Below, piece after piece: positions 46,359 through 60,305 of a stretch of 64,000 nucleotides of DNA. The position numbers and the translations under genes are program-made. Within the stretch, counting starts at the first letter, position 1; each line of letters opens with the position of its first letter. Under the pieces are notes generated by a model. The model was given only the letters and a program-made list of their open reading frames with translations. It did not search any database and was not told where the DNA came from. Source of the DNA: Devosia neptuniae (GTDB lineage: Bacteria; Pseudomonadota; Alphaproteobacteria; Rhizobiales; Devosiaceae); NCBI RefSeq assembly GCF_025452235.1, contig NZ_CP104965.1, positions 3,716,501 through 3,780,500 of the forward strand. The letters are read 5' to 3'.

Positions 46359-46515
46359 GATGATCGCTATGGGCTACGCGTTATCCGTAGCAGGCGCGCA
46401 GAGACTGAGCAATAAACACAATTGCCTATAAATTAGCCATTCAATCGGTTTGGAGTGGATAGCGGCCGGCATGGCGCCTTCCTAGTCTGTCCTCCGACGA
46501 TTGGAGACCCATGGC

Positions 46516-47670
46516 ATGATCAAACCCAAGCTGCTTGCTGCCAGTGCGCTGTGCTGCGCCACCATGCTGACTTTTCCCGTGATGGCGCAGGAGGCCGAAT
46601 TCGTCCCCGAGACGTTTTCGGTGAAGGAGGCCATCGAGCCGGGACCCAATATTTTCGTGGGCAAGCAGGAATGGGGCGGGGCCAGCTCGATCGAGGTTTA
46701 TTCGGCTGATGACCTGACCAACAAGGGCAATATGACGGCGGGCGCCATCATCCAGCTGCTGGTCGCGCCCGATGGCAAGACGGCCTATGCGCAGTCGACT
46801 TTCATGAAGCGCTATACCTATGGGCCGATCGAGCAGGTGCTCAACGTCTATGACGTGAACACGCTCTCCATCACCAAGGAAATCCTGCTGCCGGGCAAGG
46901 CCGCCATGGTCGCCGCCTATGAACCGCTGCTGGCGCAAAGCGCCGATGGCAAGTTCGTCTATGTGCAGAATGCGACGCCAGCCACCTCGGTGACCGTGGT
47001 GGACGTGGCGGCCGGCAGCGTGGTGCAGGAAGTGGCGACGCCGGGTTGCTGGGGCATCTACCCCTCGCTCGAGGGTCACAGCTTCTCGACGATCTGCGGC
47101 GATGGCACCTTTGCCAGCTTTGACGTGGGCGCCGATGGCGCAGCCGCCGAAAAGACCATCAGCGAGAAAATCTTCGACGCCGATACCGACCCGATCTTTG
47201 TCGCCTCCGATCGCATCGGGACCGATCTGGCGTTCATTTCCTATCACGGCAATGTCTATCTGCTGTCGGACGCGACCGGCACGATCACCCAGACCGACAA
47301 GTTCTCGATCACCGAAGGCCAGGCCGAAGGCTGGGCGCCGGGCGGCTACAATCTGCTCACTTATAACGACGCCAATGGCGTGCTGTTCGTGACCATGCAT
47401 GCCGAGGCCTATGACGGCAGCCACAAGAATGCATCCGAGGAAATCTGGGCTTATGACGTCAAGGCGCGCAAGGCGCTCTACCAGTCCGCGGCGCACGGCC
47501 TGATCTCGATCAAGGTCACCGATGGGGAAACGCCAGTGCTGTTCGGGCTCAATGAGGAAGAGAGCACCGTGGTGCGCTTTGCCGTTGATCCAGAGGCCAG
47601 GTTTGCGCTCAAGGAGACCGGATCGGGTGACGGCACCGGCTTTGCCACCGTCGTCGTGGTAGGTCCGTGA
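46516..47670 (+). CDS. aauB: Amine dehydrogenase heavy chain (aromatic amine dehydrogenase type)
   Basis: The large periplasmic subunit of a quinoprotein amine dehydrogenase, 384 residues, folding as a beta-propeller. The signal peptide is MIKPKLLAASALCCATMLTF, cut near MAQ. Mature blocks include VYDVNTLSITKEILLPGKAA, CWGIYPSLEGHSFSTICGDG, YHGNVYLLSDATG, EGWAPGGYNLLTYNDANGVL, FVTMHAEAYDGSHKNASEEI and WAYDVKARKALYQSAAHGLI, which match MauB/AauB proteins. ATG at 46516 has GGAG about 10 bases ahead. It is the first gene of the aauBEDA operon. Confidence 0.92.
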   Translation: MIKPKLLAASALCCATMLTFPVMAQEAEFVPETFSVKEAIEPGPNIFVGKQEWGGASSIEVYSADDLTNKGNMTAGAIIQLLVAPDGKTAYAQSTFMKRYTYGPIEQVLNVYDVNTLSITKEILLPGKAAMVAAYEPLLAQSADGKFVYVQNATPATSVTVVDVAAGSVVQEVATPGCWGIYPSLEGHSFSTICGDGTFASFDVGADGAAAEKTISEKIFDADTDPIFVASDRIGTDLAFISYHGNVYLLSDATGTITQTDKFSITEGQAEGWAPGGYNLLTYNDANGVLFVTMHAEAYDGSHKNASEEIWAYDVKARKALYQSAAHGLISIKVTDGETPVLFGLNEEESTVVRFAVDPEARFALKETGSGDGTGFATVVVVGP

Positions 47671-48200
47671 TGGAGGCGACTTGGACAAGCCTGGTCGCGG
47701 CGACGGCAACGGCGTTCATCGCCCTGCTGTTCGCCCGGGCGGCCTGGCACAAGCTCTCGGACTTCACCGCGTTCACCGGCTTCGTCGCCGACTATGACCT
47801 GATGCCCGCCAGCCGGGTAAACCTTGCCGCAATGGTGCTGGTCGGCCTCGAAGTCCTGGTCGTCGTCGCGCTGCTTACGCCAGGCGGCAACATGGCCGGC
47901 GCCGTGCTCGCCGTCGGGCTGCTCGGGCTCTATGCGGCCGGCATGGGCATCAACATCAATCGTGGCCGGGATCGCATCGAATGCGGCTGTGGCGGCGCGG
48001 TGCAGCCGCTGGGCTGGCAATTGGTGGGCCGCAATGGCGTGCTCGCCGCCATCGCTGCGCTGTGCCTGGTCGGTTCGCCCTATGCACTTTCGCTCAGCGA
48101 GGCAGCGGCCGCGCTGGTCAGCGGCTTCATCCTGTGGGTGGGCTATCTGCTGATCGAGCAGATCATGGCCACCACTGCCGTCATGCGGCTGCGGCGCTGA
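47670..48200 (+). CDS. aauE: Amine dehydrogenase maturation membrane protein (MauE/AauE)
   Basis: A 176-residue inner-membrane protein with about five hydrophobic segments, of the MauE/DoxX-like family needed for correct disulfide formation or export of the small subunit. It has the paired cysteines C105 and C107 in RIECGCGGAVQPLGWQL, as MauE does. Its ATG overlaps the aauB stop. Confidence 0.9.
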   Translation: MEATWTSLVAATATAFIALLFARAAWHKLSDFTAFTGFVADYDLMPASRVNLAAMVLVGLEVLVVVALLTPGGNMAGAVLAVGLLGLYAAGMGININRGRDRIECGCGGAVQPLGWQLVGRNGVLAAIAALCLVGSPYALSLSEAAAALVSGFILWVGYLLIEQIMATTAVMRLRR

Positions 48201-48218
48201 AGCGCGAAAACAAGGACA

Positions 48219-48824
48219 ATGGAAATGAATGCACTCATCCTCGCAGTTGGCGTCCTCTGGGTCGTCGTGCTCTGCCTTATCGTCGCGCTGTTCGCCATGG
48301 CCCGCCAGATCGGGGTGCTCTACGAACGCGTCTCGCCCATGGGCGCGCTGGTCAATGATGCCGGTCCGCGCATCGGCGACATGACGCCGCTGTTCAGCCT
48401 GCCCAGCCTGACGGGCGGCACTGTGGCCATCGGCCCGCGGCCTGACCGCTCGACGCTGGTGTTCTTCCTCTCGCCCACCTGCCCGGTCTGCAAGAAGCTG
48501 CTGCCCATCCTGCGCTCGGTGCGACAGGCGGAAGACAAGTGGCTCGACGTAGTGCTGGCCAGCGATGGCGACCTGGCCAAGCATCAGCGCTTCATCGAAA
48601 CCGCGGATCTGGGCAGTTTCCCTTATGTGGTGTCGAGCGACCTGGGCGTGTCCTATCGCGTCTCGCGCCTGCCCTTTGCCGTGCTGCTCGACAATCGCGG
48701 TGTCATCCGCGCCAAGGGCCTGGTCAACAATCGCGAGCAGTTGGAAAGCCTGTTCAACGCCAAGGAAATGGGCGTCGACTCGATCCAGAGCTTTCTCGAC
48801 AGCCCTGCCCCCGCCAATAGCTGA
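48219..48824 (+). CDS. aauD: Amine dehydrogenase thiol-disulfide maturation protein (MauD/AauD)
   Basis: A 201-residue membrane-anchored thioredoxin-fold protein. An N-terminal anchor (residues 5-28) is followed by a periplasmic domain with C88-P-V-C91 in FFLSPTCPVCKKLLP. It presumably helps form the six disulfides of the small subunit. AAGGA lies ahead of the ATG. Confidence 0.92.
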   Translation: MEMNALILAVGVLWVVVLCLIVALFAMARQIGVLYERVSPMGALVNDAGPRIGDMTPLFSLPSLTGGTVAIGPRPDRSTLVFFLSPTCPVCKKLLPILRSVRQAEDKWLDVVLASDGDLAKHQRFIETADLGSFPYVVSSDLGVSYRVSRLPFAVLLDNRGVIRAKGLVNNREQLESLFNAKEMGVDSIQSFLDSPAPANS

Positions 48825-48844
48825 GCCCCTAAGGAGTACCTTCA

Positions 48845-49384
48845 ATGGCAATGATCGACACTATCTTTGAATGGCTCGACCGGGGCGCCGAAAAGAGCAG
48901 CCGCCGCATCGCCCAAGGCACCGGCCGGCGGAGCTTTCTGACCAAGGCGGGCGCCGCCATGCTGGGGGGAAGCCTGCTGCCCATGTTGCCCTTCGACCGC
49001 AATTTCGGCCAGGCCTTTGCGCAAGAGGGCGCCTCTCCCGATGGCGACCAGACCTCGTGCGATTACTGGCGCTATTGCGCGCTGGACGGCAATCTCTGCA
49101 ATGAATGCGGCGGCACGCTCAACCAGTGCCCGCCGGGCTCGGAAGCCTCCAAAGTCTCCTGGGTGGGCACCTGCCGCAATCCCAATGACGAGAAGGATTA
49201 CCTCGTCTCCTACAATGATTGCTGCGGGAAGGCGACCTGCGCCGGCTCGTTCTGCTTCACCTCCGAAGGCGAACGCCCCGGCTATCGCATGGGTCTCTAC
49301 AACGACATCAACTGGTGCATGGCCAATGATTCCAAGGGCTATCACTGCACCGTGGCCGTGCTGGTCGGGCTCGCCGATGCATAA
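48845..49384 (+). CDS. aauA: Amine dehydrogenase light chain carrying TTQ (aromatic amine dehydrogenase type)
   Basis: The catalytic small subunit, 179 residues, whose tryptophan tryptophylquinone (TTQ) cofactor is made from its own tryptophans. The spacing known for MauA is kept exactly: W106 (SWVGTC) and W157 (INWCMAND) are 51 apart, and the catalytic Asp is D125 in YNDCCG. There are 12 cysteines in the mature part, as in known light chains. The long leader has a twin-arginine motif (RRSFLTKAG). DEKDYLVSYNDCCGK, ERPGY and WCMAND followed by the ending VGLA resemble aromatic amine dehydrogenase rather than methylamine dehydrogenase. Confidence 0.93.
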   Translation: MAMIDTIFEWLDRGAEKSSRRIAQGTGRRSFLTKAGAAMLGGSLLPMLPFDRNFGQAFAQEGASPDGDQTSCDYWRYCALDGNLCNECGGTLNQCPPGSEASKVSWVGTCRNPNDEKDYLVSYNDCCGKATCAGSFCFTSEGERPGYRMGLYNDINWCMANDSKGYHCTVAVLVGLADA

Positions 49385-49820
49385 AGGCCTTGTCGTAACG
49401 CTGGCGCTTGCACTGCTCGCCGCGCCTGCCCACGGGCAGGATGCGGCGGGGCAGACAGCCTTCGCCGATACCTGCGGCGCCTGCCATATGGCGGATGGCA
49501 GCGGCTCGCCGGGGCTGGCGCCACCGCTCAACGACACCGCGCTGTGGCAGAGGCTGGGCGACCAGAGCGGGCGCTATGTCACCGGGGTCATCCTGAGCGG
49601 CCTCACCGGCAAGATCGAAGCCCGCGGGCAGATCTATGTGGGCCTTGCCATGCCGACGCATAATTGGCTGGGAGACGAGGAGATCGTCGCCATCGCCAAT
49701 TACCTGCTGGCCGACATTAATGGCCTGCCGCCTTCGGTCGATGCCGCGCTGGTTGCCGAATTGCGCGCAGCAGTGCCCAGCCACGCTGACTTGCGGGCAA
49801 TGCGCAAAGGTAACCAATGA
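49377..49820 (+). CDS. Periplasmic monohaem cytochrome c (first)
   Basis: A 147-residue protein with a signal peptide (MHKGLVVTLALALLAAPAHG) and one haem site, C33-GAC36-H37. M92 in VGLAMPTHNWLGD is the likely sixth ligand. It overlaps the aauA stop by 8 bases, so it is co-translated with the dehydrogenase. It is the likely electron acceptor of the enzyme, in place of azurin or amicyanin. Confidence 0.9.
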   Translation: MHKGLVVTLALALLAAPAHGQDAAGQTAFADTCGACHMADGSGSPGLAPPLNDTALWQRLGDQSGRYVTGVILSGLTGKIEARGQIYVGLAMPTHNWLGDEEIVAIANYLLADINGLPPSVDAALVAELRAAVPSHADLRAMRKGNQ

Positions 49821-50263
49821 AATCTCTGCGCGCCTTTGCCTTGCTCGGCCTGCTGGCGACATCGCCCGCAGCCGCGCAAGAGCGCTCGCCCCACGCCAAT
49901 TACATCCTGCGCTGCGCCGGGTGCCATGCCATGGATGGCTCGGGACATCCGGTGGGTGGCATCCCCGATTTTCGCAACCTGGTAGGCGCCTTTGCCCGCG
50001 ACGAAACCGGGCGCACCTATCTGATGCATGTGCCCGGCGTGATTGGCGCCAGCTTGTCCGACACTGAAATCGCGGCAGTGCTCAACTACATCATGGACAA
50101 TTGGGGCGGGGAATCCGTGCCTGCCGATTTCGTACCGTTCACCGGTATCGAAGTCAGCACACTACGCGCCAAGAGTATTGGCGATGTCGTTACCTATCGG
50201 CGCAAACTGGTCGAAACTCTTACCGAGCAGGGCATTGCCACAGCGGGCTATCCCTGGCCTTAA
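49817..50263 (+). CDS. Periplasmic monohaem cytochrome c (second)
   Basis: A 148-residue protein with a signal peptide (MKSLRAFALLGLLATSPAAA) and one haem site, C33-AGC36-H37. The sixth ligand is less clear; M70 in TYLMHVPG or M93 are options. It overlaps the first cytochrome gene by 4 bases and is probably the next electron carrier toward the oxidase. Confidence 0.88.
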   Translation: MKSLRAFALLGLLATSPAAAQERSPHANYILRCAGCHAMDGSGHPVGGIPDFRNLVGAFARDETGRTYLMHVPGVIGASLSDTEIAAVLNYIMDNWGGESVPADFVPFTGIEVSTLRAKSIGDVVTYRRKLVETLTEQGIATAGYPWP

Positions 50264-50439
50264 CGCGACAGGCACCGCATGCCGGCGCCATTGCCAAGAA
50301 TATCGGCGACCGCACACCACCTGCCCAATCGGTGTGCAGCCAGCCGATGTTCTAGCCGCCAGCCCAGAAAAACCGGCCTAAAATCCCCGATATCAGGCCA
50401 AAAACACTTGGCACGTGCCTTGCATCATGTCTGGCGAGT
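50264..50439. other. Spacer between the cytochrome gene and the riboswitch
   Basis: A 176-base stretch containing the end of the aau unit and presumably the promoter of the guanidine operon. I see no confident terminator, promoter box or gene in it. Confidence 0.35.
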
Positions 50440-50550
50440 TGGGTGCTAGGGTTCCGGCGTCGTCATGACGCGTCTGGTCCGAGAGCCACCCGCCGGCACG
50501 GGAGCAATCGTGTCGGACACGGCGGGACAAAAGCCCGGGAGACCTCGTAA
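50440..50550 (+). ncRNA. Guanidine-I (ykkC) riboswitch aptamer
   Basis: The consensus blocks of this aptamer are all present in order: CTAGGGTTCCG (50446-50456), TGGTCCGAGAG (50475-50485), ACACGG (50517-50522) and GGGACAAAAGCCCGGGAG (50524-50541). The variable stem between blocks two and three is CCGCCGGCACGGG-rich. It lies directly upstream of a transporter and carboxylase operon, the usual place for this class, which senses free guanidinium. The exact ends are approximate. Confidence 0.93.
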
Positions 50551-50553
50551 GCC

Positions 50554-50592
50554 AAGGGATTGGCTCGATGGTTTCTGCCGATCCCTTTTTGT
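50554..50592 (+). terminator. Riboswitch-controlled intrinsic terminator
   Basis: AAGGGATTGG (50554-50563) pairs with CCGATCCCTT (50578-50587) with one G-U pair, followed by TTTG. Its left arm also fits a smaller GCCAA/TTGGC hairpin (50551-50564) next to the aptamer's closing stem. Guanidine binding would be expected to favour read-through. Confidence 0.8.
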
Positions 50593-50614
50593 GACTACGC
50601 AAAGGGGATCTGAC

Positions 50615-51688
50615 ATGACGAAACTGTCCAAATTTCTCGTTACGGCATTGCTGGCTTCGACACTGGGTTTCGGCGCAACGCTGCCCGCACTCGCCCAGGC
50701 CAAGACCGACTTCAAAGTCGCCTGGTCGATCTATGTCGGCTGGATGCCCTGGGGCTATGCCGCCGACAATGGCATCGTCCAGAAATGGGCCGACAAATAC
50801 GGCATCACTATCGAGGTCACCCAGTTCAACGACTATGTGGAGTCGATGAACCAATACACCGCAGGCGCCTATGACGCGGTGACTCTCACCAATATGGATG
50901 GCCTCTCTATCCCCGCTGCTGGTGGCGTCGACACCACCGCCGTGATCATCGGCGACTTCTCCAACGGCAATGACGCCGTCATCCTCAAGGACCAGACCGC
51001 GCTGGCCGCCATCAAGGGGCAGCCAGTCAATCTCGTCGAATTCTCCGTCTCCCATTACCTGCTCGCCCGGGCGCTCGAAAGCGCCGGGATGAGCGAGCGC
51101 GACGTCAATGTGGTCAATACCTCCGACCCCGATATGGTCGGCGCCTTCCAGACGCCTGACGTCACCGCCATGGTCACCTGGAACCCCATGGTCTCCGAAA
51201 TTCTCGCTTTGCCCGACGCCACCAATGTCTTCAACAGCGCCGATATTCCCGGCGAAATCATCGACCTGATGGTCGCCAACACCGACGTGCTCGCGGCCAA
51301 TCCCGATTTCGGCAAGGCCTTGGTCGGCATCTGGTATGACACGATGTCCATCATGACCGCCGACACTCCGGAAGGCGCAGCCGCGCGGCAGGCCATGGGC
51401 GTTGCCTCGGGCACCGACCAGGCTGGTTTCGAGGCTCAGCTTGCCGCCACCAAGCTGTTCCCCACGCCAGCGGAAGCCGTCGCCTTCACCACCGCGCCCG
51501 AGCTTGCCACCACCATGGATCGCGTCCGCACCTTCCTGTTCGACAAGGGCCTGCTCGGCTCCGGCGCCCCTTCGGCTGACGTCATAGGCATCGAATTGCC
51601 CGATGGCACCGTGCTGGGCGACGCCGCCAACGTAAAGCTGCGCTTCACCGCCAGCTACCTGAGCATGGCCGCCGACAGCGCCCTCTGA
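50615..51688 (+). CDS. Guanidine (urea-type) ABC transporter substrate-binding protein
   Basis: A 357-residue periplasmic protein of the NMT1/SsuA type. The signal peptide MTKLSKFLVTALLASTLGFG is cut near ALAQA. FKVAWSIYVGWMPWGYAADN opens the mature part, and TVTQ-like ITIEVTQFNDYVESMNQYTA, YDAVTLTNMDGLSIPAAGGV and VTAMVTWNPMVSEIL follow. AAAGGGG stands 9 bases before ATG 50615. It should bind guanidinium, given the riboswitch just ahead. Confidence 0.88.
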   Translation: MTKLSKFLVTALLASTLGFGATLPALAQAKTDFKVAWSIYVGWMPWGYAADNGIVQKWADKYGITIEVTQFNDYVESMNQYTAGAYDAVTLTNMDGLSIPAAGGVDTTAVIIGDFSNGNDAVILKDQTALAAIKGQPVNLVEFSVSHYLLARALESAGMSERDVNVVNTSDPDMVGAFQTPDVTAMVTWNPMVSEILALPDATNVFNSADIPGEIIDLMVANTDVLAANPDFGKALVGIWYDTMSIMTADTPEGAAARQAMGVASGTDQAGFEAQLAATKLFPTPAEAVAFTTAPELATTMDRVRTFLFDKGLLGSGAPSADVIGIELPDGTVLGDAANVKLRFTASYLSMAADSAL

Positions 51689-51696
51689 ACCGGATC

Positions 51697-51717
51697 GGGC
51701 CGGCTTCTGGCCGGCCC
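51697..51717 (+). terminator. Hairpin after the guanidine-binding protein gene
   Basis: A perfect 8-bp stem, GGGCCGGC with GCCGGCCC, and a 5-base loop; no T run. Likely protects the upstream mRNA or stops part of the transcripts. Confidence 0.55.
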
Positions 51718-51735
51718 ATAGGCGGAGCCTCCTAC

Positions 51736-52551
51736 ATGCGTTGGATCAATACCAAACCCGGGCCGGCCATGCGGCTGATGCTCATGCTCGCGCCCTTCGT
51801 GTTGCTGGTCATTGCCTATAGTATGGGCTCGGCGGCGCGGCTGGCCGATAATCCCAGCGACAAATTGCTACCCGCATTAGCGAGCCTCACCGACGCCATC
51901 AACCGCATGGCCTTCACCCCCGATGTCCGCACCGGCGAATATCTGATGTGGGTGGACACCACAGCCAGCCTCTCCCGCCTGCTCTGGGCGCTGGGCATTT
52001 CCACCGCCATCGCCCTGCTCTTCGGCATGACCGTGGGCATGTTCCCCTATGTGCGGGCGCTGCTGGCCCCGTTCATCGCCACCATCTCCATGGTGCCGCC
52101 GCTGGCCCTGCTGCCCATTCTCTTCATCGTGCTGGGCCTGGGCGAAGCCGCCAAGATCACCCTGATCGTCATCGGCGTCGCCCCGGCCATGATCCGCGAC
52201 CTCGCCCTCAAGGTCATTGAGCTGCCGCGCGAACAGATCATCAAGGCCGAAACCCTGGGCGGCTCCTCCTGGCAGATAGCCCTGCGCGTGGTCCTGCCGC
52301 AAACTCTGCCGCGGCTGCTCACCTGCCTGCGCCTGCAACTGGGCCCCGCCTGGCTCTTCCTCATCGCCGCCGAAGCCATCTCGGCGGATTCCGGGCTCGG
52401 CTACCGCATCTTCCTCGTCCGCCGGTACCTCTCGATGGACGTGATCTTCCCCTATGTGGCCTGGATTACGCTCCTCGCCATCATCATGAATTTCGCGCTC
52501 GATCGGCTGCGCATCGCCATCTTCCCCTGGTCCAATCTGGAGCGGCAGTGA
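51736..52551 (+). CDS. Guanidine (urea-type) ABC transporter permease
   Basis: A 271-residue inner-membrane protein of the SsuC/TauC type with about six segments. VPPLALLPILFIVLGLGEAA and the EAA loop EQIIKAETLGGSSWQIALRV followed by VLPQTLP are clear. It is followed directly by the ATPase gene. Confidence 0.91.
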   Translation: MRWINTKPGPAMRLMLMLAPFVLLVIAYSMGSAARLADNPSDKLLPALASLTDAINRMAFTPDVRTGEYLMWVDTTASLSRLLWALGISTAIALLFGMTVGMFPYVRALLAPFIATISMVPPLALLPILFIVLGLGEAAKITLIVIGVAPAMIRDLALKVIELPREQIIKAETLGGSSWQIALRVVLPQTLPRLLTCLRLQLGPAWLFLIAAEAISADSGLGYRIFLVRRYLSMDVIFPYVAWITLLAIIMNFALDRLRIAIFPWSNLERQ

Positions 52552-53378
52552 TGAGTACCATCGTGCTCGACAATGTCTGGAAGGAATATGGCGACCAGAT
52601 CGTGCTGGAAAAGGTCTCGCTGACCATCGCTTCCCGCGCCTTCGTCGCCCTGGTCGGCCCCTCCGGCTGCGGCAAGACCACGTTCCTCAAAATGCTGCTG
52701 GGAGAAGAAGCCCCCACGCGCGGCACCATCACCCTCGATGGCATCCCGCTGATGGCCGAGCCCGGCCCCGACCGTGGCGTCGTTTTCCAGCGCTATTCGG
52801 TATTTCCGCACCTCACCGTGCTGGGCAATGTGCTGCTCGGCAAGGCCTTCACCGGCTCCAAAATCGCCGCCCGCCTGTTCGGCGCCAGCAAGCGCAGTGC
52901 CGTCGAAGAAGCGCGCCAGCTCATCGCCGATGTTGGCCTCGCCGGTTCCGAGGACAAATACCCCGCCCAGCTCTCCGGCGGCATGCAACAGCGCCTCGCC
53001 CTCGCCCAGGCGCTGATCATGAAGCCCAAAGTGCTGTTGCTCGACGAGCCCTTCGGCGCGCTCGATCCCGGCATTCGCGCCGAAATCCACGTGCTGATGA
53101 AGCGCCTGTGGCACGAGACTGAACTCACCGTCGTCATGGTCACCCATGACATGCGCGAGGCCTTCACCCTGGGCACCCGCGTCATCGCCTTCGAGCGGCC
53201 GCGCGACCGCCCCGAAGAGCGCGAGCGCTACGGCGCCCTGCTCAGCCGCGACATCGATATCTGGCCGCCGCGCATTGCCGGCGAGCCCTCCATTTTCGCA
53301 CCCGACCGGGACGACCCGGTCATGCCCTTGGGTCTTGCTCAGGACGACCTGGCGCCAACACAAGGAGATAATCCATGA
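52551..53378 (+). CDS. Guanidine (urea-type) ABC transporter ATP-binding protein
   Basis: A 275-residue ATPase of the SsuB/TauB type: Walker A GPSGCGKT, signature LSGGMQQRLALAQAL, Walker B VLLLDEPFGALDPG and switch VMVTHDMREAF. The ATG at 52551 overlaps the permease TGA; a GTG one codon earlier is possible. The last bases overlap the next gene by 4. Confidence 0.92.
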   Translation: MSTIVLDNVWKEYGDQIVLEKVSLTIASRAFVALVGPSGCGKTTFLKMLLGEEAPTRGTITLDGIPLMAEPGPDRGVVFQRYSVFPHLTVLGNVLLGKAFTGSKIAARLFGASKRSAVEEARQLIADVGLAGSEDKYPAQLSGGMQQRLALAQALIMKPKVLLLDEPFGALDPGIRAEIHVLMKRLWHETELTVVMVTHDMREAFTLGTRVIAFERPRDRPEERERYGALLSRDIDIWPPRIAGEPSIFAPDRDDPVMPLGLAQDDLAPTQGDNP

Positions 53379-54172
53379 GCCGTACGCCAGAACAGATCGC
53401 CGCCGACCGCGCGCGCTATGAAGAACATCAGCGCAAGGGCCTGCAAAACGCCCCCAAAGCCTTGCCTGCCCCCAGCGCGATTCCCGCCGCGCCGATTGCC
53501 GACCCCATCCACACCGAAACCGTTCCCGGCGGCTGGTATTGGTCCACCAATCTCAAAGCCGGCGACACCATCCGCATCGCCCAGGATCAGGGCCCCTCGG
53601 CCGTGGCCATGATTGCCTGGAGCCTTGCCGACACCAGCGAGCGCCTCAACCTGCCCGACACCGTCAAAGTACAATGGACCACCGCCATCGCCAAGGGCCG
53701 CGTGCTGTTTTCCGATATGGGCCGCGTCATGTTCTCGGTCACCGAGGCGGCCTCATCCGCCCATGATGGCCTGGTCGGTGGCTCCAACGCCGCCTCCAAC
53801 ACCCGTTATTCCGGCGACACTCGCAATACGCGCGACAATTTCGTCCTCGTCGCCGGCAAGCTGGGGCTGGATCGTCGCGACATCCCCTCGGCGCTCACCT
53901 TCTTCGCCCCTGTCCGCGTCACCGCCGACGGCGCTTTCGTCTGGCGCGAGGACATGCGCCAGCCCGGCGACTATGTCGAACTGCGCGCCGAAATGGATCT
54001 GGTCATCGCCCTGTCCAACTGCCCGCACCCGCTCGATCCCAACCCCGCCTATGAACCCAATCCGGTGACCGTCACCCGCTTCCGCCTGCCCGTGCCCGCC
54101 GACGACCTCTGCCGCACTGCCACCGCCGAAGCCATTCGTGGCTTTGAAAACAACAGCATGCAGCTGGCTTGA
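53375..54172 (+). CDS. DUF1989 protein, urea/guanidine carboxylase-associated protein 2 (carboxyguanidine deiminase subunit)
   Basis: A 265-residue protein of the UAAP2 type. In guanidine-degrading bacteria two DUF1989 proteins (CgdA and CgdB) form the carboxyguanidine deiminase, which turns N-carboxyguanidine into allophanate. TVPGGWYWSTNLKAGDTIRI, ARYEEHQRKGLQNAPKALPA near the start and GDYVELRAEMDLVIALSNCP near the end are typical. The position matching CGRHD of the partner reads SSAHDG here and lacks the cysteines, so this is probably the non-metal partner. Which of the two names applies is uncertain. Confidence 0.82.
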   Translation: MSRTPEQIAADRARYEEHQRKGLQNAPKALPAPSAIPAAPIADPIHTETVPGGWYWSTNLKAGDTIRIAQDQGPSAVAMIAWSLADTSERLNLPDTVKVQWTTAIAKGRVLFSDMGRVMFSVTEAASSAHDGLVGGSNAASNTRYSGDTRNTRDNFVLVAGKLGLDRRDIPSALTFFAPVRVTADGAFVWREDMRQPGDYVELRAEMDLVIALSNCPHPLDPNPAYEPNPVTVTRFRLPVPADDLCRTATAEAIRGFENNSMQLA

Positions 54173-54185
54173 GGGGGAGACACAG

Positions 54186-54794
54186 ATGAGCATTCAGGAA
54201 CACTTCATCCCCGCCGAAAAGCCCTGGTCCGGTATTGTGCGCAAGGGCCAGACCATCCGCATTGTCGACAGCGAAGGCCAGCAGGCCGTCGATACCCTGT
54301 TCTACAAGGCCGACGACTTCTCCGAGCGTTATAGCGGCCAGGACACGCTTCGCGTCCAGGGCAGTGCCTATGTCGGCATCGGCACAAAAGTCATCAGCAA
54401 TGAAGGCAATGTCATGCTGGTGGTGACGGCCGATAGCTGCGGCCGCCACGACACTTCGGCGGGCGCCTGCTCCTGCGAAAGCAACACCGTCCGCTTCGGC
54501 TACAACACCAAATATCTCCACGCCTGCCGCGACAATTTCCTGCTCGAAGTCACCAAACACGGCATGGGCAAGCGCGACATCGTCCCCAATATCAACTTCT
54601 TTATGAACGTGCCCATCGAGCCCTCCGGCCAGATGACCATCGTCGACGGCCTCTCCGCCCCCGGCGATCATGTCGAACTGCGGGCCGAAATGGACGTCCT
54701 CTGCGTCATCTCCAACTGCCCGCAAGTGAACAACCCCTGCAACGGCTTCAACCCGACGCCGATCAAGGTCGTGATTTCGGGGGATGCTGCATGA
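54186..54794 (+). CDS. DUF1989 protein, urea/guanidine carboxylase-associated protein 1 (carboxyguanidine deiminase subunit)
   Basis: A 202-residue protein of the UAAP1 type, the likely metal-binding partner of the protein before it. The potential ligands C85, H88, C95 and C97 are in DSCGRHDTSAGACSCESN, and another pair of cysteines is in ISNCPQVNNPCNGFNPTP. GGGGAGA precedes ATG 54186; the frame is open to 54138 but without a ribosome site. Together the two should hydrolyse carboxyguanidine to allophanate plus ammonia (established for this operon type; inferred here). Confidence 0.84.
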   Translation: MSIQEHFIPAEKPWSGIVRKGQTIRIVDSEGQQAVDTLFYKADDFSERYSGQDTLRVQGSAYVGIGTKVISNEGNVMLVVTADSCGRHDTSAGACSCESNTVRFGYNTKYLHACRDNFLLEVTKHGMGKRDIVPNINFFMNVPIEPSGQMTIVDGLSAPGDHVELRAEMDVLCVISNCPQVNNPCNGFNPTPIKVVISGDAA

Positions 54795-54841
54795 TCTTGC
54801 ACCGTATAGCCGCAGATCGCGCCTGCGGGGGGCACTGAACC

Positions 54842-57800
54842 ATGTTCACCAAAGTCCTCATCGCCAATCGCGGCGAAATCGCCGTGCGCGTCATCAAAAC
54901 CCTGCGCCGCATGGACATCGCCTCGGTCGCCGTCTATTCCGACGCCGACCGCTTCACCAAGGCCATCTCGCTCGCCGATGAAGCCGTCCGTCTCGGCCCG
55001 GCGCCCGCCAGCGAGAGCTATCTCGATATCGACGCCGTCATCGCCGCCTGCAAATCCACCGGCGCCCAGGCGGTCCATCCCGGCTACGGCTTTCTCAGCG
55101 AAAACATCAGATTCGCCGAACGGCTAGCCGCCGAAGGCATCGCCTTTATCGGACCGACTCCGGCCAATATCAAAGCCTTCGGCCTCAAGCACACCGCCCG
55201 CGAACTGGCCAAGGCCAGCGGCGTCCCCCTGCTGCCGGGCACGGACCTGCTGACCAGTGCCGCCGAAGCCCTGTCTGCGGCCGAAACCGTCGGCTACCCC
55301 GTCATGCTCAAAAGCACGGCCGGCGGCGGCGGTATCGGCATGCAACTCTGCGCCGACGCTTCGACTCTCGCCGCCGCCTTCGACAGCGTGCAGCGCACCG
55401 CCACGGCCAGCTTTGGCGATGCCCGCGTCTATATCGAGCGCTTCGTCTCCGATGCCCGCCATGTCGAAGTGCAGATATTCGGCGACGGCAAAGGTGGGGT
55501 TATCGCCCTGGGCGAACGTGATTGCTCCCTGCAGCGCCGCAACCAGAAAGTTGTCGAGGAAACCCCCGCGCCCGGCCTCACTGACGCCACCCGCGCCCGC
55601 CTGCACAAAGCCGCTACCGATCTGGGCGCCGCCGCCGCCTACGCCTCCGCCGGCACCGTGGAATTCATCTACGATCCCATCCGCGAGGATTTCTATTTCC
55701 TTGAGGTCAATACCCGCCTCCAGGTCGAACATCCCGTCACCGAAGCCGTATTCGGCATCGACCTTGTCGAATGGATGATCCGCCAGGCCGCCGGCGAAGA
55801 CCCCATAGCGACAGCCGGCCCGATCACCCCCAAAGGCGCCTCCATCGAAGTGCGCCTCTATGCCGAAATCCCGCATGCCAATTTCCAGCCCAGCGCGGGC
55901 CTGCTGACTGAAGTGCGGTTCTCCGACAGCGCCCGTATCGACACCTGGATCGAAACCGGCACCGAGGTCACCCCCTATTACGACCCCATGCTGGCCAAGA
56001 TCATCGTGGCCGGGGCCGACCGCCCCACTGCCATCGCCAATCTGCGCGCCGCGCTCAACGACACCTCGATCACCGGCATCGAAACCAATCTGGCATATCT
56101 CCGCGCCATCGCAGCCTCCGATCTGCTCGCCAGCGGCAAGGTGGCCACCACTGCGCTCAAGGACTTCGCTTTCATCCCCGATGTCATCGAAGTCCTCGCC
56201 CCCGGCGCGCAATCAAGCCTGCAGGAACTCCCCGGGCGTCTGGGCCTCTGGCATGTCGGCGTGCCCCCGAGCGGCCCCATGGACGAGCGCTCCTTCCGCC
56301 ACGCCAACCGCCTCGTCGGCAACGCCGACGTTACGGCTGCACTCGAACTCACTGTCGCCGGCCCCACCCTGCGCTTTCACGCCCCCGCCACTATCGCGCT
56401 GGCTGGCGCCGCCATGCCGATGAAGCTCGACGGCGCCCTTGTCGCCCACAACTCGGCAATCGCCGTCGCCGCCGGGCAAACCCTGAGCATCGGCGCCATC
56501 GCCGGCCCCGGCCAACGCAGCTATCTCGCCGTGTCCGGCGGCTTCGCGGCTCCCGTGGTCCTCGGCTCCCGCGCCACCTTCGGCCTTGGCCAATTCGGCG
56601 GCCACGCCACCAGCACGCTCAAAGCAGGCCAGGTGCTCCATCTCGCCCGCGCCGAGCAGACAGCCGCCCGGCCCGCCAGCGCCCCGGCACCCCTCTCCCG
56701 CCACTGGGATGTCGGCGTGCTTTACGGCCCCCATGGCGCGCCGGACTTCTTCCTCGATACCGATATCGAAACCCTCTTCGCCACCGATTACGAGGTCCAC
56801 TTCAACAGTGCCCGCACCGGCGTCCGTCTCATCGGCCCCGCCCCCAAATGGGCCCGCACCGATGGCGGCGAAGCGGGCTTGCACCCCTCGAATCTGCACG
56901 ACAATGCCTATGCCGTCGGCGCCATCGACTTCACCGGCGACATGCCCATCATCCTGGGCCCCGATGGTCCGAGCCTGGGCGGCTTCGTCTGCCCCGCCGT
57001 CATCGCCCGCGACGAACTCTGGAAAATGGGCCAGTTCAAGCCCGGCGACACCATCCGCTTCCGGCCCCTCGCCCGCCCCGACGATCCGATTGCCGCGCCC
57101 GCCATCCAGCGCCCGGACATCGACACCGGCTCGGCCATTCTTGCCCGCTCCGATGATGGTCCCGTGCCGGTCGTCTATCGCCGCCAGGGCGACGACAACC
57201 TGCTGGTCGAATATGGCGACATGTCCCTCGATATCGCGCTGCGTTTGCGCGTTCACTTGTTGATGAAATCCATCCAGCGGGACGGCAAAATCGGGGCCAT
57301 TGACCTCACCCCCGGCATCCGTTCGCTGCAAATTCACTATGACGGCACCGCCATGTCGCGCAGCCGCTTACTGGGTTTGCTGGGGGAAATCGAAAAATCT
57401 CTCCCCGCCGCCGAAGAGGTGGTCGTCCCCAGCCGGATCGTGCACCTGCCTTTGTCCTGGAATGATCCGGACATTCAGCTGGCGATGCAGAAATACCAGG
57501 AATTGGTGCGCCCCAACGCGCCCTGGTGCCCGGACAATATCGAGTTCATCCGCCGCATTAACGGCCTCGACAGCGTCGACGCCGTCAAGCAAACCATCTT
57601 CGACGCCAGCTATCTCGTGCTCGGCCTGGGCGACGTTTATCTGGGCGCTCCGGTCGCCACCCCGGTCGATCCGCGCCATCGCCTCGTCACCACCAAATAC
57701 AACCCCGCCCGCACCTGGACGCCTGAAAACGCCGTCGGCATTGGCGGGGCCTATATGTGCATCTACGGCATGGAAGGCCCAGGCGGATATCAGCTGTTCG

Positions 57801-58378
57801 GCCGCACCATTCAGGTCTGGAACACCTGGCGCTCGACACCCGCCTTCCAGCCGCAAAAGCCCTGGCTGCTCAATTTCTTCGACCAGATCCGCTTCTTCCC
57901 CGTCGATCATCAGGAGCTGGCCGAAGCCCGCGCCGCCTTCCCGCATGGCGCCTATCCCATCCGCATCGAGGAGACAAAATTCTCCTATGCCGACTACGCG
58001 CGTGACCTTGCGGCAAATGCCAACAGCATCACCGCCTTCAAGACCCGCCAGCAAGCCGCCTTCGACGCCGAACGCAATCGCTGGAAGGCTGAGGGCCTCG
58101 ATAGCTTCGTCGCCGACGACGCCGGCAACGGCGCTTTGGAGGGCGATATCCCTGCCGGATGCTTCGGCGTCGGCAGCACCGTCCCCGGCAATATCTGGAA
58201 AATCCTGGTCGAAGACGGCGCCGCTGTCGCCGAAGGCGAAGCCGTCGCCATCGTGGAATCCATGAAAATGGAAATCACCGTCACCGCCCACGCCGCCGGC
58301 CGCGTCCGCGACGTCCGCGCGGCCCCTGGCCGCAATGTCAAAACCGGCGATGTCATCGTCGTTCTGGAGGAAATCTGA
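54842..58378 (+). CDS. Biotin-dependent guanidine carboxylase (urea carboxylase family)
   Basis: A 1178-residue, single-chain, ATP- and biotin-dependent carboxylase. Residues 1-445 are the biotin carboxylase (IANRGEIAVRVIKTLRRMDI, HPGYGFLSENIRFAE, glycine loop KSTAGGGGIGM, EVNTRLQVEHPVTEAV). About 450-760 and 775-1020 are the two halves of the carboxyltransferase, like the KipA and KipI proteins (GPMDERSFRHANRLVGN; GDDNLLVEYGDMSLDIALRL). About 1103-1178 is the biotin carrier with K1142 in ESMKMEI. The family includes true urea carboxylases; the riboswitch and the two DUF1989 genes make guanidine the likely substrate. Confidence 0.92.
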   Translation: MFTKVLIANRGEIAVRVIKTLRRMDIASVAVYSDADRFTKAISLADEAVRLGPAPASESYLDIDAVIAACKSTGAQAVHPGYGFLSENIRFAERLAAEGIAFIGPTPANIKAFGLKHTARELAKASGVPLLPGTDLLTSAAEALSAAETVGYPVMLKSTAGGGGIGMQLCADASTLAAAFDSVQRTATASFGDARVYIERFVSDARHVEVQIFGDGKGGVIALGERDCSLQRRNQKVVEETPAPGLTDATRARLHKAATDLGAAAAYASAGTVEFIYDPIREDFYFLEVNTRLQVEHPVTEAVFGIDLVEWMIRQAAGEDPIATAGPITPKGASIEVRLYAEIPHANFQPSAGLLTEVRFSDSARIDTWIETGTEVTPYYDPMLAKIIVAGADRPTAIANLRAALNDTSITGIETNLAYLRAIAASDLLASGKVATTALKDFAFIPDVIEVLAPGAQSSLQELPGRLGLWHVGVPPSGPMDERSFRHANRLVGNADVTAALELTVAGPTLRFHAPATIALAGAAMPMKLDGALVAHNSAIAVAAGQTLSIGAIAGPGQRSYLAVSGGFAAPVVLGSRATFGLGQFGGHATSTLKAGQVLHLARAEQTAARPASAPAPLSRHWDVGVLYGPHGAPDFFLDTDIETLFATDYEVHFNSARTGVRLIGPAPKWARTDGGEAGLHPSNLHDNAYAVGAIDFTGDMPIILGPDGPSLGGFVCPAVIARDELWKMGQFKPGDTIRFRPLARPDDPIAAPAIQRPDIDTGSAILARSDDGPVPVVYRRQGDDNLLVEYGDMSLDIALRLRVHLLMKSIQRDGKIGAIDLTPGIRSLQIHYDGTAMSRSRLLGLLGEIEKSLPAAEEVVVPSRIVHLPLSWNDPDIQLAMQKYQELVRPNAPWCPDNIEFIRRINGLDSVDAVKQTIFDASYLVLGLGDVYLGAPVATPVDPRHRLVTTKYNPARTWTPENAVGIGGAYMCIYGMEGPGGYQLFGRTIQVWNTWRSTPAFQPQKPWLLNFFDQIRFFPVDHQELAEARAAFPHGAYPIRIEETKFSYADYARDLAANANSITAFKTRQQAAFDAERNRWKAEGLDSFVADDAGNGALEGDIPAGCFGVGSTVPGNIWKILVEDGAAVAEGEAVAIVESMKMEITVTAHAAGRVRDVRAAPGRNVKTGDVIVVLEEI

Positions 58379-60183
58379 TGCTGCCGATCATGCTGGACCT
58401 GGCCACTCTCAAAGCCCTCTATGCAGAGGGAAAGGCGACCCCGCTCGACATCATCCAAGCCGTCATAGAACGCCGCGCCGCCTGGCCCGACAAGGCCGTG
58501 TTCATCACCCCGGTCAGTGACGAAACCCTCCGCTCGGCCGCCGAAACCCTGATGGCCGAGCATCCAGAACCCAATAGCCTGCCGCTCTGGGGTATCCCCT
58601 TCGCGGTCAAGGACAATATCGATGTGGCGGGCCTGCCTACCACGGCCGCCTGCCCGGCTTTTGCCTATCAGCCCGCCGCCGACGCGACAGTCATCGCCCG
58701 CCTGCGCGCGGCGGGCGCCATCGTCATCGGCAAGACCAATCTCGATCAGTTCGCCACCGGCCTCAACGGCACCCGCTCGCCCCATGGCGCGCCACGCTCC
58801 GTCTTCGACGCCGACTATGTCTCGGGCGGCTCCAGCTCCGGCTCGGCTGTCACCGTCGCCGCCGGCTTCGCTACTTTCTCCCTGGGCACCGACACAGCCG
58901 GCTCCGGCCGCGTCCCCGCCATGTTCAACAATCTTGTCGGCATCAAGCCGACACCGGGCCTCTTGCCCAATACCGGTGTGATCCCCGCCTGCAAAAGCGT
59001 TGATTGCGTGACCATTTTCGCGGCGACCGTGGGCGATGGCGTTGCCGTCCGCAAAGTGGCCGAAGGCTTCGACGCTACCGATCCCTTCTCCCGCCGCGCC
59101 ACTTGGGCCAACCTGCCCATTTCAAGCCTGTGCGTCGGCGTTCTCGATGGCGCCGAGCGCGAATTCTTCGGCAATACCGAGGTCGAGAAGCTCTATGACT
59201 CGGCCATAGAAAATACCCGCGCCCTGGGCGCCACCATCGTCCCCTTCGACTATGCCCCGTTCCGCCAAGCCGCTGCCCTGCTCTATGACGGTCCCTGGGT
59301 CGCCGAGCGCCTGGCTGCTCTCGAAGATTTCTTTGCCAGCAACGAGGCCGATTTCGACCCGACCGTCCGCGCCATCATCGCCGGCGCCAAGGGCAAGACC
59401 GCGGTCGAAGCCTTCAACGGCAAATACCGGCTGGAGGAATTGCGCCGCATCACCGAAGCCGAATGGGCCAAGGCCGATGTGCTGCTGCTCCCCACATCGC
59501 CCACCACCTATACCGTGGCCGAAATGCAGGCCGACCCGATCCGGCGCAATTCGCATTTCGGCCGCTACACCAATTTCGTCAATCTGCTCGATTGCGCAGC
59601 CATCGCCATTCCGGCGGGCTTCGACAGCGCCGGCCACCTGCCTGCCGGCGTCACTCTTGTCGCTCCCGCCTTCACCGACGATGCATTGGCCCCCCTCGCC
59701 GACGCCCTGCACCGCCGCGCCGCCAGCGGCATGGGCCGCGACAAGACCGCGACCCTGCCCGAAGCCAGCAAGGTTCCGGCCGCGCCCGACGCCTTCATTC
59801 CCATTGCCGTCGTCGGCGCTCATCTGAGCGGCATGCCGCTCAATCACGAACTAACCGGCCCCGGCGGACGCCTGCTCAGAAGCTGCCGCACCGGAGCCGA
59901 TTACCAGCTCTTCGCCCTGCCCGGCACAGTCCCGCCCAAGCCGGGCATGGTGCAGCAACCCGGCTTCGCGGGGGCTGGCCTCGAAGTCGAAATCTGGGCT
60001 CTCCCCGCCGCCGCCTTCGGCCAATTCGTCGCCCGCATTCCCGCCCCGCTCGGTATTGGCAAGATCAGCCTCGACGACGGCAGCACGGTTTCAGGCTTCC
60101 TCTGCGAAGCCCATGCCGTCTCCGGCGCCCAGGACATCACCCATCACGGCGGTTGGCGCAATTTCATCGCCTCCCGCACCTGA
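58378..60183 (+). CDS. atzF: Allophanate hydrolase
   Basis: A 601-residue amidase-signature enzyme that turns allophanate into two ammonia and two CO2, the last step of the pathway. The Ser-cisSer-Lys triad is visible: K78 (FAVKDN), S152 (SGGSSSGSA) and S176 (DTAGSGR). A C-terminal domain (about residue 475 on, with MPLNHELTGPGGRLLRSC and HGGWRNFIASRT) is the second domain of allophanate hydrolases, thought to act on the N-carboxyurea intermediate. The ATG at 58378 overlaps the carboxylase TGA and has GAGGAAA ahead. Confidence 0.93.
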   Translation: MLPIMLDLATLKALYAEGKATPLDIIQAVIERRAAWPDKAVFITPVSDETLRSAAETLMAEHPEPNSLPLWGIPFAVKDNIDVAGLPTTAACPAFAYQPAADATVIARLRAAGAIVIGKTNLDQFATGLNGTRSPHGAPRSVFDADYVSGGSSSGSAVTVAAGFATFSLGTDTAGSGRVPAMFNNLVGIKPTPGLLPNTGVIPACKSVDCVTIFAATVGDGVAVRKVAEGFDATDPFSRRATWANLPISSLCVGVLDGAEREFFGNTEVEKLYDSAIENTRALGATIVPFDYAPFRQAAALLYDGPWVAERLAALEDFFASNEADFDPTVRAIIAGAKGKTAVEAFNGKYRLEELRRITEAEWAKADVLLLPTSPTTYTVAEMQADPIRRNSHFGRYTNFVNLLDCAAIAIPAGFDSAGHLPAGVTLVAPAFTDDALAPLADALHRRAASGMGRDKTATLPEASKVPAAPDAFIPIAVVGAHLSGMPLNHELTGPGGRLLRSCRTGADYQLFALPGTVPPKPGMVQQPGFAGAGLEVEIWALPAAAFGQFVARIPAPLGIGKISLDDGSTVSGFLCEAHAVSGAQDITHHGGWRNFIASRT

Positions 60184-60197
60184 CCAAGGAGACCAAA

Positions 60198-60305
60198 GTG
60201 CTGACCTGGCTCGCTAAACTTCGCCACCTTATCCAGCAGGGACTGATCGCCCGCATAGAGGCCATCGGCTCCCGCCGCTCCGTCGGCGATCGCCCCAAAC
60301 GCTGA
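60198..60305 (+). CDS. Possible 35-residue basic protein at the end of the guanidine operon
   Basis: A small ORF starting with GTG at 60198, only 14 bases after the allophanate hydrolase stop, with AAGGAGA in front at ideal spacing. The product (MLTWLAKLRHLIQQGLIARI, then about 15 more residues rich in Arg and Ser) would have one amphipathic helix and a basic tail. Length alone gives weak support; the ribosome site and position are the case for it. I recognise no family. Confidence 0.5.
   Translation: MLTWLAKLRHLIQQGLIARIEAIGSRRSVGDRPKR

Follow-up and report, generated by a model that had tools for sequence, protein, structure and literature searches.

An operon for the import and degradation of guanidine in Devosia neptuniae appears to carry two guanidine sensors, one of which lies within the coding sequence of a transporter gene. 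The window analysed here is a 64,000-nucleotide (nt) stretch of D. neptuniae DNA; all coordinates are window positions, and the features described are on its plus strand. The operon (50440..60305) encodes an ABC transporter, two DUF1989-type proteins, a carboxylase and an allophanate hydrolase. We consider it probable that the two sensors act in series, with a guanidine-I riboswitch in the leader gating the operon and a guanidine-II aptamer, embedded in the terminal codons of the gene for the transporter ATPase, gating translation of the next gene. The embedded aptamer is the most unusual feature of the region and was absent from the first-pass annotation of this DNA.

A guanidine-II aptamer inside the ATPase gene

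The ATPase gene (52548..53378) matches ATPase families over residues 2-219 and is open to its stop codon. Wholly within its last codons, at 53303-53352 (+), the guanidine-II model RF01068 matches with 38.7 bits, above its cutoff of 32. The two hairpins, both with ACGA loops, occupy 53304..53321 (hairpin 1; columns 2-19 of alignment A2) and 53339..53352 (hairpin 2; columns 37-50). The Shine-Dalgarno (SD) sequence of the next gene, AAGGAG at 53362..53367, is also within the ATPase coding sequence, and the ATPase stop overlaps the start of that gene, the first DUF1989-type gene (UAAP1), by 4 nt. A public Rhizobium plasmid record has the same 4-nt overlap between ATPase and UAAP1 genes and no RNA feature there; its table lists no RNA genes.

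We scanned 136 Devosiaceae genomes with RF01068 and with the guanidine-I model RF00442 (gathering score 63), which matched 101 and 25 genomes, respectively. Nineteen loci with paired aptamers were chosen by eye from the 25 genomes with an RF00442 match (G053, G062, G104, G107, G130 and G132 are outside this set), and in these 19 genomes both aptamers are on one strand, 2.8-3.0 kb apart. The guanidine-II element is always 50 nt long and lies wholly, and in frame, within the ATPase coding sequence (19/19); 17 of the matches are above cutoff, and the remaining two score 31.5 (G059) and 30.7 (G097). The gene next after the ATPase is that for the carboxylase in 3 of the 19.

A wider sample was obtained by scanning with the transporter binding protein (alignment A1) and keeping the best 80 of at least 568 confirmed loci, ranked by similarity; these come from Devosia, Rhizobium and kin, and rhodobacters, and many are closely related. 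Whole-genome searches of the 80 relatives gave RF01068 matches in 78, over cutoff in 76, where matches to either model count anywhere in the genome and are not mapped to the locus. At the locus itself, Rfam support beyond the 19 Devosiaceae comes from 11 sampled relatives, in which guanidine-II was above cutoff in 10 and guanidine-I in all 11.

Combining the Devosiaceae set with the wider sample, less six duplicates, gave 93 loci, whose classes were assigned by two occurrences of the pattern GGACGRCC, which presets part of the loop codons. Both hairpins lie within the ATPase coding sequence at 62 of the 93 loci; at 54 they share one frame, with a spacing of 33 nt in every case (54/54), and at 8 they are in different frames. 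The ATPase stop falls in the linker between the hairpins at 18 loci, the aptamer is downstream of the stop at 6, and 7 are without an intact hairpin pair. The aptamer is thus embedded in an open, conserved frame in several lineages, where it is also constrained as RNA, as its synonymous silence (below) indicates. When the locus classes are mapped onto a midpoint-rooted tree of the 93 ATPase sequences, one of them damaged, 10 changes are required, against a mean of 36.4 when the classes are shuffled.

This overlap could reflect nothing beyond compact packing of an ordinary guanidine-II switch of the intergenic style, without regulatory meaning; the 18 loci at which the ATPase stop splits the aptamer and the 6 at which the aptamer lies downstream indicate that embedding is not needed. 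What argues against simple packing is that the SD of the next gene is also inside the ATPase coding sequence at 51 of the 54 same-frame and 7 of the 8 two-frame loci, that is, at 58 of the 62 embedded loci, and at 0 of the 18 stop-in-linker and 0 of the 6 downstream loci. In addition, 38 of the 54 same-frame loci have a 4-nt stop/start overlap, and an SD inside the ATPase gene combined with such an overlap would bring terminating ribosomes onto the next start codon. We consider packing an unlikely explanation of the arrangement, albeit one to be taken seriously.

Constraint on the hairpins

Among 42 distinct same-frame aptamers, 97.6% of stem pairs are standard, and two-sided changes occur in 7 of the 12 stem pairs (5 of 7 in hairpin 1 and 2 of 5 in hairpin 2), a number reached in 0 of 500 shuffles. 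The element therefore has the two hairpins, the ACGR loops and the covariation by which guanidine-II is recognized. As a measure of synonymous change, we determined across 57 loci how often two codons for the same residue differ (the synonymous-difference fraction), leaving out a locus with a damaged frame, L083, whose inclusion gave the same outcome. This fraction was 0.0137 for the eight hairpin codons, 0.164 for the outer stem codons, 0.508 for the linker codons and 0.404 for the body of the gene. None of 225 body windows of the same shape was as low as the hairpin codons (0/225), with the qualification that 54 of the 57 loci were chosen by the GGACGRCC pattern, which presets part of the core codons. 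Six of the seven loci that fail this pattern had their tails aligned by eye (L083, L089, L123, L136, L144 and L155; the seventh, L161, is outside the comparison), and their remaining loop Asp codons are GAC. In the loops of the 54 same-frame loci there is no GAT, the codon used for 197 of the 648 other Asp residues.

Selection on the protein could in principle produce such conservation, if an RDDP...RDDP tail of the ATPase were maintained and the Rfam match arose incidentally from the similarity of two acidic codon stretches. The mean pairwise amino acid identity of the hairpin codons is indeed higher than that of a body stretch (0.813 vs 0.752, 54 loci), but synonymous change is nearly absent in the hairpin codons only, and the stems carry two-sided changes. 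The loops, moreover, are retained when residues are not. In the 54 same-frame loci ACGA has often become ACGG, though this alters the residue, and at one position 38 of the 54 have Gly in place of Asp (GGC for GAC), which keeps the ACGR loop. Both loops are likewise kept at the 8 loci with hairpin 2 in another frame and at the 24 with the aptamer partly or wholly outside the ATPase gene. Frame shifts, the Asp-to-Gly change, stem covariation and synonymous silence together led us to reject the protein-motif explanation, which we hold to be very improbable. These patterns suggest that selection keeps the RNA hairpins while frame and residues vary, and one RNA stretch likely supplies both codons and a ligand pocket.

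We give equally little credence to the idea that guanidine sensing has been lost and that the aptamer in the ATPase tail is a remnant: the seven loci without an intact pair imply that the element can be lost, but the near absence of synonymous change and the two-sided changes in the stems point to present constraint, and 10 of the 11 sampled relatives have a match over cutoff at the locus. In three of these seven (L136, L155 and L161) the hairpin pair is gone; L089 carries a change within its first loop, and the changes in L083, L123 and L144 are beside the second. The tail codons of L136 and L155 include CGC and GGG, which are unseen in the hairpin codons of intact loci, and in L083, from Devosia sp. 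A8/3-2, the ATPase frame is damaged (branch 6.66) and the second hairpin degenerate.

Leader folds and a proposed mechanism

The first-pass annotation had claimed a complete guanidine-I aptamer ahead of the operon, and RF00442 matches over its full length at 50435..50543 (+), with 84.1 bits (E 1.5e-13), above the gathering score; this is the only RF00442 match in the whole genome. At and beyond its 3' end, three hairpins are predicted. A terminator-like hairpin with a U-run (50554..50590; -19.0 kcal/mol), in which 50554-50564 pairs with 50577-50587 and U's come next, competes with an equally strong antiterminator-like hairpin that starts in the 3' end of the aptamer (50538..50576; -19.4 kcal/mol alone) and is similar in relatives. 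The right arm of the terminator hairpin is also part of a third hairpin, which covers the SD region of the first gene (50580..50610; -16.1 kcal/mol).

A terminator overlapping the 3' side of the aptamer had been proposed, together with a local GCCAA/TTGGC pairing. The pairing exists, and so does a terminator-shaped hairpin, but this begins about 10 nt past the end of the aptamer model, and the element that does overlap is the competing hairpin at 50538-50576. The terminator proposal is correct in part. In the predicted folds of the 19 Devosiaceae leaders as read by eye, a stem with U-run is present in 11 and absent from 8 (L069, whose SD hairpin has U's from the next gene, is left out of the 11). 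For 18 of these leaders the fold includes the SD-covering hairpin, and the remaining one, L071, folds as a terminator instead. A pattern scan of 50260-50640 did not report the leader terminator; the two terminator-like sites that it gave are on the minus strand.

In the mechanism that we propose, guanidine-I would gate the whole operon from the leader, its alternative folds forming the terminator or covering the first SD. Guanidine-II, at the 3' end of the ATPase gene, would gate translation of the next gene, which is the first DUF1989-type gene here and the carboxylase gene in three relatives. According to the available part of a study of this class, once its hairpins have docked on guanidine the linker is stretched, a fold over the ribosome site is disfavoured, and that site could become exposed (PMC5486947). 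A ribosome finishing the ATPase gene would melt the aptamer and stop on the next start codon, which would give basal expression by coupling. In the intervals from one ribosome to the next, both loops would dock on guanidine and the linker would be stretched away from pairing near the SD, and the docked state would allow extra initiation at the next gene. Only with guanidine present in the cell would the catabolic enzymes then increase relative to the transporter.

Several observations weigh against this proposal. When 53303-53395 is folded, a structure without hairpin 2 is more stable than one with both hairpins enforced (-33.9 vs -29.1 kcal/mol), and the SD is predicted to be mostly paired in either fold, with no clean exposure. 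Pairing of the linker with the SD shows a mild excess, the mean duplex energy being -10.4 against -9.3 for swapped and -8.7 for shuffled pairs, and 28% of 75 distinct pairs are within the best 10% of their own shuffles. The seven loci without an intact hairpin pair also count here, as does the fact that we infer translation of the ATPase tail from its open, conserved frame. For a simple anti-SD model, the linker-SD signal is mild, and folding of the region shows no clean switch. Translation through the aptamer is the element that we add, and it leads us to propose basal coupling plus guanidine-dependent initiation.

We also raise, tentatively, a broader possibility that we find attractive without favouring it: the riboswitch may read ribosome flow as well as ligand. 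Each ribosome would reset the aptamer, so that enzyme output would be a function of both guanidine and transporter translation, and the position of the ATPase stop codon, which evolution has moved before, between or beyond the hairpins, would tune the response.

The operon, its neighbours and related systems

The operon proteins were named by their NCBIfam profile matches. The first gene (50615..51688) encodes the substrate-binding protein (TIGR03427, putative urea ABC binding protein; 538.9 bits, cutoff 333.9), and the second (51736..52551) the permease, whose best match, TauC-like, is under cutoff and whose place is the same in relatives. After the ATPase gene come the two DUF1989-type genes, the first at 53375..54172 (TIGR03425, UAAP1; 258.1 bits, cutoff 205.95), a carboxyguanidine deiminase subunit in the literature, and the second at 54186..54794 (TIGR03424, UAAP2; 333.7 bits, cutoff 284.7; start chosen by hand). 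The carboxylase gene follows at 54842..58378 (TIGR02712, urea carboxylase; 1804.7 bits) and that for allophanate hydrolase at 58378..60183 (TIGR02713; 784.9 bits for the open reading frame (ORF) 58159-60183; start chosen by hand). ORFs and profiles agree with the gene order read at first from the letters, and the prediction that standard pipelines would attach urea labels was borne out by the NCBIfam names; DUF1989, however, was the first-pass annotation's own family name, the profile matches being UAAP1 and UAAP2.

The genome has one full-length copy of the carboxylase-type enzyme. Residue D696 of this enzyme falls opposite N1330 in an alignment with the solved Kluyveromyces urea amidolyase (5i8i), and we take N1330 to be the residue meant by a published rule for telling guanidine from urea carboxylases. 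Under that rule, as given in the accessible part of a review, Asp marks a guanidine carboxylase and Asn a urea carboxylase (PMC12186494). The motif xFTGDxP was found 79 times in the best 80 of at least 568 related loci, with Asp in 78 and Asn in 1. It is scarcely credible that the operon serves urea as annotated: the NCBIfam names and a public Rhizobium plasmid record, which gives relatives the same urea names, speak for it, but guanidine-I and guanidine-II matches occur together in the one operon, Asp occupies the Asn1330 position, and the genome encodes a separate urease elsewhere. The evidence, to which a further guanidine-II match ahead of an SMR-like gene (below) adds, supports guanidine import and degradation as the operon's role. 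The guanidine reading made at first sight holds up in this respect, with the reservations that its terminator account was partial and that the guanidine carboxylase pathway, with its guanidine switches, is already established biology in what is available of two papers (PMC12186494, PMC12508155).

The genes for methylamine dehydrogenase (heavy chain, MauE, light chain and cytochromes c, by Pfam) lie upstream on the same strand (46501-50263) and end 172 nt before the guanidine-I aptamer. They were found in 2 of the 80 relatives (L082 and L083), some of the 80 loci being without a full upstream flank; we therefore take them to be a local neighbour and rejected a functional link with the guanidine operon.

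Guanidine-II matches occur in other settings as well. A second match elsewhere in this genome (L002, 1501-1549) is intergenic and upstream of a 104-aa SMR-like gene, presumably for an exporter, as recognized by eye and not by family search. Those at L031 and L033 are upstream of an ORF that we likewise take, by eye and not by family search, to encode a PACE-type efflux protein. In L172-L177, L007 and L029, all from Devosiaceae, a gene is bracketed by two matches that lie about 0.8-1.25 kb from each other and in some cases score below cutoff (in L172 the matches are at 1220-1268 and 2466-2513), and the gene arrangements of L172-L177 appear similar, wholly or in part. In L029 the bracketed gene is a Na_Ca_ex match and the one beyond the second aptamer match is an ATP synthase A chain match; what looks like an isolated gene for ATP synthase subunit a is a puzzling setting for a guanidine switch. 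A literature search, with subscription journals mostly outside its scope, gave among the matches listed none that connects chaA or the subunit a of ATP synthase with guanidine riboswitches.

Operons with both guanidine sensors are already known, and the new aspect here is the embedding of one of them in the upstream gene. The guanidine/methylguanidine operon of Vreelandella boliviensis has, as here, a leading guanidine-I, an internal guanidine-II and the same transporter and carboxylase-pathway genes, but its guanidine-II is intergenic, between cgdB and gca (PMC12508155, in the portion at hand), whereas ours is within the ATPase coding sequence, ahead of the first DUF1989-type gene. Raoultella, Erwinia and Klebsiella also have both classes in one cluster, their guanidine-II being assigned to the genes for carboxylase and allophanate hydrolase, with no embedding in coding sequence mentioned in the available text (PMC12186494). 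The guanidine-II (mini-ykkC) class RF01068, as far as its partial description goes, shares the two ACGR-loop hairpins near a ribosome binding site, whereas here the aptamer is coding sequence of the upstream gene (PMC5486947). A parallel in mechanism is offered by the B12 riboswitches of Mycobacterium tuberculosis metE and ppe2, where a translated aptamer is joined to termination-reinitiation onto the controlled gene; in the accessible part of that work these are OFF switches with short leader ORFs, whereas in our case the ORF is a full transporter gene and the class has known members taken as ON switches (PMC11260477). Among the matches listed by a literature search with the same limits as above, there was no guanidine-II aptamer inside an upstream gene or coding sequence.

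This operon probably has two guanidine sensors and not the single one first noticed. The differing positions of the ATPase stop around one aptamer amount to a natural experiment on the interplay of translation and ligand sensing. Descriptions of riboswitches usually concern untranslated leaders and intergenic gaps, and searches for them are often made there as well; here the sensor is conserved coding sequence in Devosiaceae, Rhizobiaceae and rhodobacters, and if this is true, searches confined to intergenic sequence would miss such elements.

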